Assembly: GCF_029267215.1 (NCBI RefSeq)
Contig: NZ_JARIDH010000060.1
Span: forward strand, 1-59,683
DNA length: 59,683 nt
DNA from: Clostridium sp.
GTDB lineage: Bacteria; Bacillota; Clostridia; Clostridiales; Clostridiaceae
Reading direction: 5' to 3'
Numbering within the stretch: the stretch's first letter is position 1; each line of letters opens with the position of its first letter. Of this stretch, positions 15,057 through 55,340 are shown piece by piece. The translations under genes were made by a program, and so were the position numbers. The notes beneath the pieces were generated by a model. That model did not search any database. It was not told the origin of the DNA and was given only the letters and a program-made list of their open reading frames with translations.

Positions 15057-15417
15057 GGGGGCGTTTTGGCTTCGACGGGGGTAAGATGGGTTTGATAAGC
15101 GGGTCGAGGTAAGCATGTTCCCTCGTTAATCAAGTATGCATTAAAGATAAACGCAGAAGATAATTTTGCATTAGCAGCTTAATTTAGCGCTGCTCATCTT
15201 TCCTCAATTGCCCACGGTTGAGAGTAAAGGTGTCATTTTAAAGTGGGGAACCGAGCTTAGCAAAGCTTTGAGCTAAGAACGGAATTTATGAAGCTTACCA
15301 AAGAGGAAGTTTGTCTGTGGACGTCTTCTGAGGGAATTTTAAAACACAAGACTACACTCGTAGAAAGTCTTACTGGTCTGCTTTCGGACACGGGTTCGAC
15401 ACCCGTCGCCTCCACCA
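15057..15417 (+). ncRNA. ssrA: Transfer-messenger RNA (tmRNA)
   Basis: Rescues ribosomes stalled on non-stop mRNA together with SmpB. The 5' end GGGGGCG pairs with CGCCTCC just before the encoded ACCA at the 3' end, giving the 7-bp acceptor stem. Canonical blocks are present: TTTTGGCTTCGACGGGG at the 5' end and GGGTTCGACACCC as the T arm. The resume frame reads GCA GAA GAT AAT TTT GCA TTA GCA GCT TAA, tag peptide AEDNFALAA, which I recall as the C. perfringens tag. The 361-nt length is normal. An open frame across 15288-15491 is an artefact of the RNA gene. Confidence 0.98.
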
Positions 15418-53757: not shown

Positions 53758-53786
53758 TTTACAAAATATTTAAAAATGCTTAATAT
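53758..53786 (+). promoter_or_regulatory. Predicted promoter of the mgtE leader
   Basis: TTTACA (53758-53763), 17 bases, TAATAT (53781-53786). The transcript would begin near 53793, about 50 bases before the leader ORF. Confidence 0.65.
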
Positions 53787-53841
53787 AAATATAGGGCAAT
53801 GTAATCTTTGAAATTTAAGTTTTAGTTTGGAGGTGGTGTAA

Positions 53842-53940
53842 ATGGAAGGAGATCCCCTTAGTAGAAGGTTTGGTTGTAATTTTAAAAACAAGAAGAGGAT
53901 AGGTATGCTATTTGTGCCACAACTAACTATGTTTTTATAG
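53842..53940 (+). CDS. Leader peptide ORF upstream of mgtE, 32 aa
   Basis: A short gene with a strong, well-placed ribosome binding site (GGAGGTGGTG at 53829-53838). It encodes MEGDPLSRRFGCNFKNKK (residues 1-18), then a basic and hydrophobic end finishing TMFL; total 32 residues. The start resembles MgtL of enterobacteria (which begins MEPDP and carries an Arg run), a leader whose acidic/Pro N-terminus destabilises the translating ribosome when Mg2+ is low. Its codons 18-20 contain AAGAGGATA, one arm of the switch described next. There is no membrane segment. Product function in trans is not expected. Confidence 0.75.
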   Translation: MEGDPLSRRFGCNFKNKKRIGMLFVPQLTMFL

Positions 53941-53993
53941 ATAATTTAATAAATATTGGCTAGTTTATCCTCTTTGATAATTAGAAAAGAGGA
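53893..53993 (+). promoter_or_regulatory. Translational attenuator controlling mgtE
   Basis: Two mutually exclusive pairings. AAGAGGATA (53893-53901, inside the leader ORF) pairs with TATCCTCTT (53966-53974), 9 perfect pairs. Alternatively TCCTCTTT (53968-53975) pairs with AAAGAGGA (53986-53993), which is the mgtE ribosome binding site. A ribosome reading the leader through to its end would disrupt the first pairing and permit the second, closing mgtE; early ribosome loss would do the opposite. The bases are direct; the logic is inferred. Confidence 0.65.
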
Positions 53994-53999
53994 AATTTT

Positions 54000-55340
54000 A
54001 TGAGTGATAGAATAACAAAAAAAGAATTAAAAGATATTTTATTAAAGTATCCAAATGAAGGTACTTTAGATTTATTAGAAGATATTCATCCAGCTGACAT
54101 AGTTGACTTATTAGAAGAGGATGAAAAGAATATAAAGCTTATAGGTAAGCTTTCTGATGATATGATTGCAGATGTAATAGATTTTGCTAAAGATGAAAAT
54201 AAAATTTTAATTTTAAAAAGTTTGCCTGAAGAAAAAAAGAAGAGTGTATTAAACAAAATAGCATCAGATGAGCTTACAGACTTAATGGCTAATCTTGATC
54301 GTGAAGAAACAAGTAAATTGCTTTCAAGCATGAAAGTTAAGGAAGCTAAAGATGTAAAAAAATTATTAACCTATGCTCCAGATACAGCAGGTGGAGTAAT
54401 GGCTACAGAATATATATCAATAAAAGAAACAATGAGTGTTAAAGAAACTTTAGAATATCTTCAAATTGTTTCCCCACAGGCTCAATCAGTTTATTATATA
54501 TATGTTGTTGATGATTTAGGTATTTTAAAAGGTGTTGTATCATTAAAAGAACTTGTTGTAAATAAATTTGATGAAAAAATATCAGATATTGCAAATAAAA
54601 ATGTAATCAGTGTTCCTTTTGATATGGACCAAGAAGAAGTTGCAAATGTGTTCGATAAATATGGACTTTTAACAATACCAGTAGTTGATTATAAAGATAT
54701 GCTTTTAGGTATAATCACAATAGACGATGTTATTGAAATAATAAAAGAAGAAACAACAGAAGACATACACAGATTAGGTGGAGTTGATGGAGAAGAAAAG
54801 GTAGATAGTACAGTTAAAGAATCTGTAAAAAGTAGATTACCTTGGTTATTTGTAAACTTAATAACAGCTTTTTTAGCTTCAGCAACTGTAGGACTTTTTC
54901 AAAATACAATAAGTAAAGTTGTAATTTTAGCAACATTCATGCCAATTGTAGCAGGTATGGGTGGAAATGGTGGAACTCAAACACTAACAATCATAGTAAG
55001 AGGTATTGCCTTAGGAGAGTTAACATTTAAAAATGCAAAAAGAATATTCTTTAAAGAAATTTGTGTTGGAATTTTAACAGGTGCTGCCACTGGTGTTGTT
55101 ACTGCTTTAGTTGCTGTTGTTTGGTCACAAAAACCAGCAATTGGATTAGTTATTGGATTAGCAATGGTATTAAATATGACAGCTGCTACATTTGCAGGAT
55201 ATTTAGTTCCAGTTATACTTAAAAAATTAAAAGTAGATCCAGCCTTGGCATCAGCAGTTTTTGTTACAACAGTTACAGATGTATGTGGATTCTTCTTTTT
55301 CTTAGGACTAGGAACATTATTCTTACCATATTTAACTTAA
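54000..55340 (+). CDS. mgtE: Magnesium transporter MgtE
   Basis: Mg2+ channel of the cytoplasmic membrane, 446 residues. Domains are the N-terminal superhelical Mg2+-sensing domain (about 1-125; LEDIHPADIVDLLEED), a tandem CBS pair (about 130-255; PDTAGGVMATEYISIKETMS), and five C-terminal helices with the pore signature VAGMGGNGGTQTLTIIVRG. MgtE is gated closed by Mg2+ bound to its cytosolic domains, so transcription or translation control by Mg2+ would add a second level. The ATG at 54000 follows AAAGAGGA with six-base spacing. A small membrane gene follows by 22 bases. Confidence 0.96.
   Translation: MSDRITKKELKDILLKYPNEGTLDLLEDIHPADIVDLLEEDEKNIKLIGKLSDDMIADVIDFAKDENKILILKSLPEEKKKSVLNKIASDELTDLMANLDREETSKLLSSMKVKEAKDVKKLLTYAPDTAGGVMATEYISIKETMSVKETLEYLQIVSPQAQSVYYIYVVDDLGILKGVVSLKELVVNKFDEKISDIANKNVISVPFDMDQEEVANVFDKYGLLTIPVVDYKDMLLGIITIDDVIEIIKEETTEDIHRLGGVDGEEKVDSTVKESVKSRLPWLFVNLITAFLASATVGLFQNTISKVVILATFMPIVAGMGGNGGTQTLTIIVRGIALGELTFKNAKRIFFKEICVGILTGAATGVVTALVAVVWSQKPAIGLVIGLAMVLNMTAATFAGYLVPVILKKLKVDPALASAVFVTTVTDVCGFFFFLGLGTLFLPYLT

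Follow-up and report, generated by a model that had tools for sequence, protein, structure and literature searches.

Upstream of the Mg2+ transporter gene mgtE on a Clostridium sp. contig (NZ_JARIDH010000060.1; the whole stretch analyzed, 59,683 nucleotides [nt], is called the window here), a short leader open reading frame (ORF) is interleaved with RNA arms that can pair in alternative ways around the mgtE Shine-Dalgarno (SD) sequence. Our analysis indicates that this element is probably a translational attenuator, which gauges the passage of ribosomes over the opening codons of a leader rich in acidic residues and Pro. The evidence comes from the ORF and the selection acting on its coding sequence, from the RNA helices and the covariation of one of them (P1), from the genes that the element precedes, and from the predicted accessibility of the mgtE SD.

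A leader ORF and four pairing regions precede mgtE

The leader ORF (MEGDPLSRRFGCNFKNKKRIGMLFVPQLTMFL, 53842..53940; all features described are on the forward strand) starts with ATG and encodes a 32-amino-acid (aa) peptide beginning MEGDPLSRRF. A strong SD, GGAGGTGG (53829..53836), lies directly 5′ of it, and the downstream gene (54000..55340) encodes, by Pfam, the Mg2+ transporter MgtE with its MgtE_N, CBS, and MgtE domains. Codons 2 to 5, E-G-D-P (53845..53856), form a putative ribosome-destabilizing start, as suggested by the known leaders mgtL and mgtQ and by the enrichment of an acidic residue 2 together with Pro at residues 4 to 6, described below.

Four regions of the RNA are involved in pairing. 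Region 1 (53833..53845), which covers the leader start codon, is the 5′ arm of helix P1 and pairs 13/13 (G-U included; −11.4 kcal/mol) with region 2b, CTATTTGTGCCAC (53908..53920), the 3′ arm of P1 within leader codons 23 to 27. Region 2a, AAGAGGATA (53893..53901, leader codons 18 to 20), is an arm able to hold the anti-Shine-Dalgarno (anti-SD), region 3, TATCCTCTTT (53966..53975): it pairs 9/9 with the portion TATCCTCTT (53966..53974; −10.5 kcal/mol), designated the ON pairing. An overlapping portion of the anti-SD, TCCTCTTT (53968..53975), pairs 8/8 with region 4, the mgtE SD AAAGAGGA (53986..53993; −9.0 kcal/mol), designated the OFF pairing, and region 4 is paired in the minimum-energy fold. 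Unconstrained folding of the region yields both the 13-bp P1 helix and the anti-SD:SD hairpin unprompted. An anti-SD able to pair with both a leader arm and the mgtE SD at the score of the window arose in 0/40 dinucleotide shuffles. The total folding energy is unremarkable (z −0.23 and −0.62), and minimum free energy is not diagnostic here.

An earlier sequence-only reading of the locus had proposed the leader ORF with its strong SD, the four arms AAGAGGATA, TATCCTCTT, TCCTCTTT, and AAAGAGGA, and the mgtE gene, with two alternative pairings around a shared anti-SD. All of these lie where that reading placed them, and the shuffles support the dual pairing; P1 (53833-53845 with 53908-53920) was not part of it. 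Its view that control acts on translation also fits better than termination: terminator-like hairpins occur in 4/86 approximate leader-to-gene stretches, with 0 in the stretch from the window, and control by an intrinsic terminator was set aside.

The leader is a translated peptide under selection

In relatives, the leader is a translated peptide under selection. Upstream regions were obtained from a family-wide MgtE search (206 genomes, 81 of which matched at E ≤ 1e-60) and from 80 loci in named records, and SD-led ATG ORFs of 14 to 50 aa within 420 nt 5′ of mgtE-like genes were counted. Asp or Glu occupies residue 2 in 53/80 distinct upstream SD-led peptides versus 25/332 elsewhere in the same loci, and the combination with Pro at residues 4 to 6 is seen in 30/80 versus 2/332; many of these 80 peptides are related, and related peptides are counted separately. 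The common start is M-[D/E]-x-x-P. The two nearest mgtE genes in the genus each carry their own leader, arm, anti-SD, and SD. The leader of sister genome G001, whose MgtE is 87% identical to that of the window, begins MESVPPSRNL, and the mgtE leader of G004, in the same genus, begins MDSSWPKRSR.

Amino acid conservation is specific to the leader frame. Over codons 2 to 8 of 36 nonredundant leaders, the leader frame scores z 6.9, with 0/300 column shuffles as high, and the other frames score −1.2 and −0.8; over codons 3 to 8 of 86 leaders, the corresponding values are 11.9, 1.7, and 1.8. Serine at residue 3 is encoded by both TCN and AGY codons, and Pro at residue 5 by CCT, CCC, and CCG. Among the 86 leaders, 67 have Pro at residues 4 to 6. 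The coding signal in this larger set reaches codons 9 to 20 (z 9.6), where relatedness and composition may be its source, and the visible likeness of the leaders is restricted to about the first 5 to 8 residues. The acidic/Pro start put forward by the sequence-only reading is conserved in relatives, as both enrichment and frame-specific conservation attest.

The sets used here and below define how these counts are to be read. Because residue 2 was a selection criterion, finding Asp or Glu there in 86/86 leaders is no evidence; the set of 57 elements examined for pairing was likewise picked by rules on an acidic residue 2, an SD, and Pro, and its residue 2 composition therefore carries no weight. 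Near-identical elements were removed from the 36-leader set, from the 86-leader sets (coding and swap tests), and from a 35-element set used for accessibility. Seven doubtful members (L014, L096, L098, L136, L149, L162, and L166) were dropped from the 36-leader test, and six of them, with L014 kept, from the accessibility set, which also leaves out elements more than 240 nt from the gene. Only L149 and L166 were dropped from the 86-leader sets.

Searches by tblastn with the leader peptide alone gave no match in plasmids or phages and, in 58 relatives, returned the peptide itself plus weak matches (best E 0.19); the small size of the peptide, together with its variability past about residue 8, makes such queries unproductive.

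Helix P1 covaries across elements

P1 is the best-supported helix, joining in most elements the leader start region (−10 to +8) to about +57 to +80 within the leader ORF. In A4 (39 of the 57 elements, aligned on sequence only, P1 being named from the window), the paired share of P1 cells is 75%, compared with 36 to 49% after a shift of 1 to 3 columns; changes occur on both sides in 10/13 P1 pairs, and the covariation score was reached by 0/500 shuffles. In A5, comprising 25 of the 57 elements chosen for P1, 85.7% of cells are paired versus 37 to 50% slid. Both sets were picked with their P1 pairings already known, and these percentages apply to those sets; L073, L074, L079, and L094 were listed for alignment but left out of A4. 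In an alignment-free swap test, the P1 arms of an element pair better with each other than 95% of swapped arms do in 45/86 cases, and P1 exceeds 95% of shuffles in 30/57 elements.

Most rows of A4 and A5 contain a leader SD resembling GGAGGTGG or GGTGGTG. Beyond this SD and the first codons, neither alignment contains an extended conserved unpaired core. In many elements the arm for the anti-SD lies near +50, beside or overlapping P1′, the 3′ side of P1, which gives the region order 1 (start), 2 (arm/P1′), 3 (anti-SD), and 4 (SD).

Predicted response of the mgtE SD to a ribosome on the leader

Ensembles were computed with ViennaRNA, a ribosome being represented as a block that cannot pair and the accessibility of the mgtE SD serving as the readout. 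Across the 35 nonredundant elements, predicted mean accessibility is 0.239 without a ribosome; placing one at the leader start brings the mean to 0.405 and raises accessibility in 25/35 elements (Wilcoxon p 1e-6), and for one mid leader the mean is 0.242. Shuffled cores show no such rise (0.456, 0.412, and 0.487, respectively). In a scan with one ribosome stepped through the leader, the site opens for positions at codons 1 to 5, tapering to about codon 8, where the acidic and Pro residues are encoded. In the window, predicted SD accessibility is 0.14 without a ribosome, 0.37 to 0.46 with one at codons 1 to 4, 0.13 to 0.23 at codons 5 to 26, and 0.27 to 0.79 at codons 27 to 30; its ON/OFF difference was matched by 1/600 shuffles. 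As P1 lies over the leader start, the predicted default state of mgtE is closed, and loss of the leader start codon is therefore predicted to put mgtE off, not on.

The element precedes Mg2+-related genes in Clostridia and beyond

Genomes at four taxonomic levels, in draws that partly overlap, were scanned with R1, a covariance model whose training set consisted of 25 mgtE leaders and nothing else. Matches were found in 133 of 206 family genomes (E ≤ 0.1), in 94 of 225 order genomes (E ≤ 0.005), in 28 of 391 class genomes (E ≤ 0.001), 9 of the 28 being from the window's own family, and in 15 of 398 phylum genomes, own genome included. The element is present in Clostridiaceae, and other families and classes of the phylum have it more sparsely.

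We read the context of 87 matches from the family, order, and class scans (E 2.7e-10 to 8.3e-3), taken, except for L246, at places that were not already known mgtE leaders. At 80 of them an M[D/E] leader is followed by a Mg2+-related gene as the next gene: MgtE in 21, a PRC-MgtE_N-CBS protein in 50, a P-type cation ATPase in 4, CorA in 3, and Nramp in 2, with Pfam run on ten representatives. An Nramp gene follows 16 of the 50 PRC-MgtE_N-CBS genes, and one of the 50 (L240) encodes a PRC barrel only. Among the remaining seven matches, one leader stands before an ABC permease (L266), and six have neither a leader nor such a gene. A model built from mgtE leaders therefore also finds the element 5′ of PRC-MgtE_N-CBS, Nramp, P-type ATPase, and CorA genes.

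The family scan gives 80 matches at E ≤ 1e-3. By hand tally, 31 of these, including many training members, lie just 5′ of a known mgtE match; of the other 49, 48 were read (all but G151:C214), and 44 stand before a member of the above gene families. So do 19/20 matches in the class outside the family and, for the phylum, 9/9 loci read out of 15 non-own matches, six being unread. The tie to Mg2+ transport proposed by the sequence-only reading is stronger than that reading knew, since the element precedes five Mg2+-related gene families.

An M-box, the known Mg2+ riboswitch, lies upstream of the leader in 10/20 and 9/20 loci scanned (19/40). At R1-match loci these counts are lower bounds, because only about 300 nt upstream were fetched. 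Where both elements occur, two Mg2+-linked devices stand in series; in the window only the leader is present, with neither an M-box (RF00380) nor any other Rfam 15 family at gathering score at the leader site.

The window's own genome contains a second leader, MEDSPRED..., 5′ of a PRC-MgtE_N-CBS gene. In L017, its relatives L013-L020, and L170, the same leader accompanies soluble PRC-MgtE_N-CBS proteins of about 420 aa, and such a protein is perhaps a free-standing Mg2+ sensor. Its gene is followed 3′ by a T-box and a cysK-like gene in relatives of the window and by an Nramp gene in many others. Leaders of a second subtype occur in tandem or at a distance, about 430 to 450 nt 5′ of mgtE, in L286 (two R1 matches 336 nt apart) and L290 (MESGSDSM... 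and MESGSSNI...), and a similar GSS subtype is found 185 to 326 nt before P-type ATPases in L208 and L295 (MEAGSSS), L209 (MEEGSS), and L225 (MDSGSS). L266, on the minus strand (G029:C1:1917790-1917875), is the sole leader among the 87 matches that does not precede a recognized Mg2+-related gene; its leader, MDDGPADSNLINKFN..., is followed by two ORFs named from sequence, one ABC-permease-like (572 aa) and one ABC-ATPase-like, possibly an unrecognized metal importer. A fluoride riboswitch lies directly 3′ of mgtE in L030 and L034 (2880-2941).

Other features of the window include a putative promoter, TTTACA-17-TAATAT (53758..53786), which matches the consensus and falls inside a stretch conserved in sister genome G001. 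It carries no statistical weight, with 2 promoter-like sites found in the stretch versus 7.0 expected; a transcript from it would begin about 50 nt 5′ of the leader ORF. Across the whole window, Rfam reaches gathering score at one place only, a tmRNA gene at 15057-15417.

Proposed mechanism

Taking the leader start site as region 1, the arm plus P1′ in the leader ORF as region 2, the anti-SD as region 3, and the mgtE SD as region 4, we propose three states. If the leader is untranslated, 1:2 and 3:4 would form and mgtE would be closed. If ribosomes keep initiating at the strong leader SD and stall or drop off at codons 2 to 5 (E-G-D-P), region 1 would be occupied and region 2 free, so that 2:3 could form, exposing the mgtE SD and turning mgtE on. 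If ribosomes traverse the leader, region 2 would be covered, 3:4 would form, and mgtE would again be closed. Low Mg2+ is taken to bring about the second state, by an intrinsic destabilization of the ribosome like that in enterobacterial mgtL and mgtQ. Ribosome behavior and the direction of control are, like the Mg2+ response, what we infer; for the Mg2+ response of the clostridial leaders, the grounds are the mgtL and mgtQ precedents, the genes preceded, and the adjacent M-boxes.

Comparison with known systems

Descriptions of published systems in this section refer to the available portions of the reports cited. The closest parallel is mgtQ of Salmonella, an 8-aa ORF between mgtC and mgtB with acidic residues 2 and 5; an mgtQ-like ORF is also noted in Brucella (PMC8092293). 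When ribosomes initiate on mgtQ and fail at the first acidic codons, they occupy region 1, which releases region 2 and exposes the transporter SD, while untranslated and fully translated leaders both leave that SD closed, and loss of the start codon lowers expression (PMC8092293). Like mgtQ, in which translation of a Mg2+ transporter is controlled through stems 1:2 and 3:4 versus 2:3 (PMC8092293), the clostridial element has a four-region topology, laid out in the window and predicted to switch in 25/35 elements. Acidic residues fall within the first five codons in both (E2 and D4 in the window), and the drop in expression seen when mgtQ is not translated is predicted here for loss of the leader start codon. 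The clostridial leader differs in having about 30 codons and, usually, the start M-[D/E]-x-x-P, in supplying region 1 from its own start site, and in position, since it lies not between mgtC and mgtB but, in Clostridiaceae and relatives, before MgtE, CorA, Nramp, P-type ATPase, and MgtE_N genes. The best reading, by analogy, is that the clostridial element works like mgtQ; homology is not claimed.

In the mgtL class, the ribosome aborts on an N-terminal motif at low Mg2+, and bL31 counters this. For MgtL itself, the motif on which ribosomes drop off at low Mg2+ is EPDP (PMC11282234), and for corL, leader translation is inversely related to transporter expression (PMC11552253). The clostridial leaders resemble mgtL (of mgtA) and corL (of corA) in their acidic/Pro N terminus. 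Whereas mgtL and corL act through Rho-dependent transcription termination (PMC11282234, PMC11552253), in the clostridial element it is the gene's SD that the pairing covers, and hairpins resembling intrinsic terminators are rare (4/86). The target of mgtL is a Mg2+ P-type ATPase; four matches here precede P-type cation ATPases, while the target in the window is mgtE.

The M-box (ykoK, RF00380), whose aptamer senses Mg2+ directly (PMC4072509), shares its target genes with the leader and stands just 5′ of it in the 19/40 loci noted above, but it is a separate element, and its covariance model has no match in the window. In Mycobacterium tuberculosis, the pe20 Mbox is followed by a conserved small ORF, uORF2 (rv1805A), an arrangement like that of the clostridial loci with an M-box; there, however, the M-box controls the uORF, with Rho-dependent termination, and the available part of the account describes no acidic-start attenuator (PMC12810186). 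A clostridial M-box reporter, Ca_c3329, is described as barely responsive in Bacillus subtilis, while the gene is responsive in its host (PMC4072509). A clostridial-type leader 3′ of the M-box might explain this weak response, and might help to explain clostridial M-box reporters that respond poorly away from home.

Evidence against the attenuator and alternative explanations

Several results weigh against a translational attenuator of this kind. P1 falls short of the 95% shuffle mark in 27/57 elements, and the anti-SD:SD pairing alone passes it in 13/57 (ungapped scoring, weak evidence by itself). The arm/anti-SD/SD trio is statistically weaker than P1, its shared anti-SD exceeding 95% of shuffles in 22/57 elements. 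RNAalifold on the 39 sequences of A4 returned no consensus structure, and the named-helix counts were used instead for that reason. In the window, P1 and the arm:anti-SD pairing do not overlap; 1:2 and 2:3 cross, and the conflict between them is topological and not one of sequence. Pro is absent from residues 4 to 6 in 19/86 leaders, 9/86 lack both this Pro and a second acidic residue at 3 to 6, and some mgtE genes, for example L026, L039, L040, and L048, have no such leader. With a ribosome at the leader start, predicted accessibility stays flat in 8/35 elements and falls in 2/35 (L020 and L077). The SD is also exposed in the model when the ribosome has nearly reached the leader stop: mean accessibility is 0.36 to 0.50 at codons 25 to 30, and the window values are 0.79 at codon 29 and 0.75 at codon 30. 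Finally, beyond the family the element occurs in a minority of genomes (28/391 in the class and 15/398 in the phylum).

An unlikely alternative is the two-state model of the sequence-only reading, in which drop-off at EGDP simply frees the arm, full translation covers it, P1 is irrelevant, and mgtE is open unless the leader is efficiently translated. Both of its pairings exist, the trio beats shuffles in the window, and in Escherichia coli corA expression rises when the corL start codon is removed (PMC11552253, available in part). However, P1 is conserved and covarying, and the predicted accessibility without a ribosome is low (0.14 in the window, mean 0.239), indicating a site closed by default; because that picture lacked P1, its default state is the reverse of the one predicted.

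The same ribosome stall could instead sense another cue, such as proline supply or charged tRNA-Pro, EF-P capacity, or general translation stress. The frequency of Pro at residues 4 to 6 (67/86) agrees with this, as does the description, in the available text, of Salmonella mgtP as responsive to charged tRNA-Pro (PMC8092293). The leaders without that Pro, the 80/87 matches that adjoin Mg2+-related genes and not amino acid or stress genes, and the M-box in series in 19/40 loci make a non-Mg2+ cue quite unlikely.

It is very unlikely that the RNA itself binds Mg2+ as a riboswitch, the ORF being incidental to the fold or a by-product of it. Although a helix covaries, and leaders of mgtE and mgtA are classic sites of Mg2+ RNA sensors, amino acid conservation is strong and frame specific, down to the use of both TCN and AGY codons for serine at residue 3; the structure is one simple helix; apart from the leader SD and first codons, A4 and A5 show no extended unpaired core that is conserved, and there is no Rfam match. 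That the leader encodes a functional micropeptide, for instance one binding the transporter, with the RNA pairings secondary, is scarcely credible despite a coding signal reaching codons 9 to 20, as this signal may reflect relatedness and composition, only about the first 5 to 8 residues are visibly alike, and a similar N terminus precedes unrelated transporter families.

A candidate Mg2+ regulon signal in Clostridia

In addition to favoring a translational attenuator at the window locus, we lean toward regarding the element as a previously undescribed regulon signal of Clostridia that reaches other classes. It would combine a leader peptide using ribosome stability as a Mg2+ gauge with a four-region switch covering the leader start site, placed before four families of Mg2+ transporters (MgtE, CorA, P-type ATPase, and NrmT-type Nramp) and soluble MgtE_N/CBS proteins, often with an M-box in series, which would give a single mRNA both a direct and a ribosome-based Mg2+ sensor. 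A full-text literature search found no earlier report of a clostridial Mg2+ leader peptide, although preprints and most subscription papers were out of its reach and this is not proof of absence; nor does one appear in the available portions of two structured-RNA surveys (PMC6429828, PMC8632094) and a Staphylococcus start-site study (PMC13009471).

In the literature covered, ribosome-based sensing of Mg2+ by leader peptides has been studied in enterobacteria. If our reading is true, a Mg2+ regulon in a distant phylum operates on this principle through one portable element placed before unrelated transporters, and destabilization of the ribosome by acidic/Pro N termini would be a general sensor and not a special case. 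The element also offers a search model for uncharacterized Mg2+ genes and a testable set of leaders.

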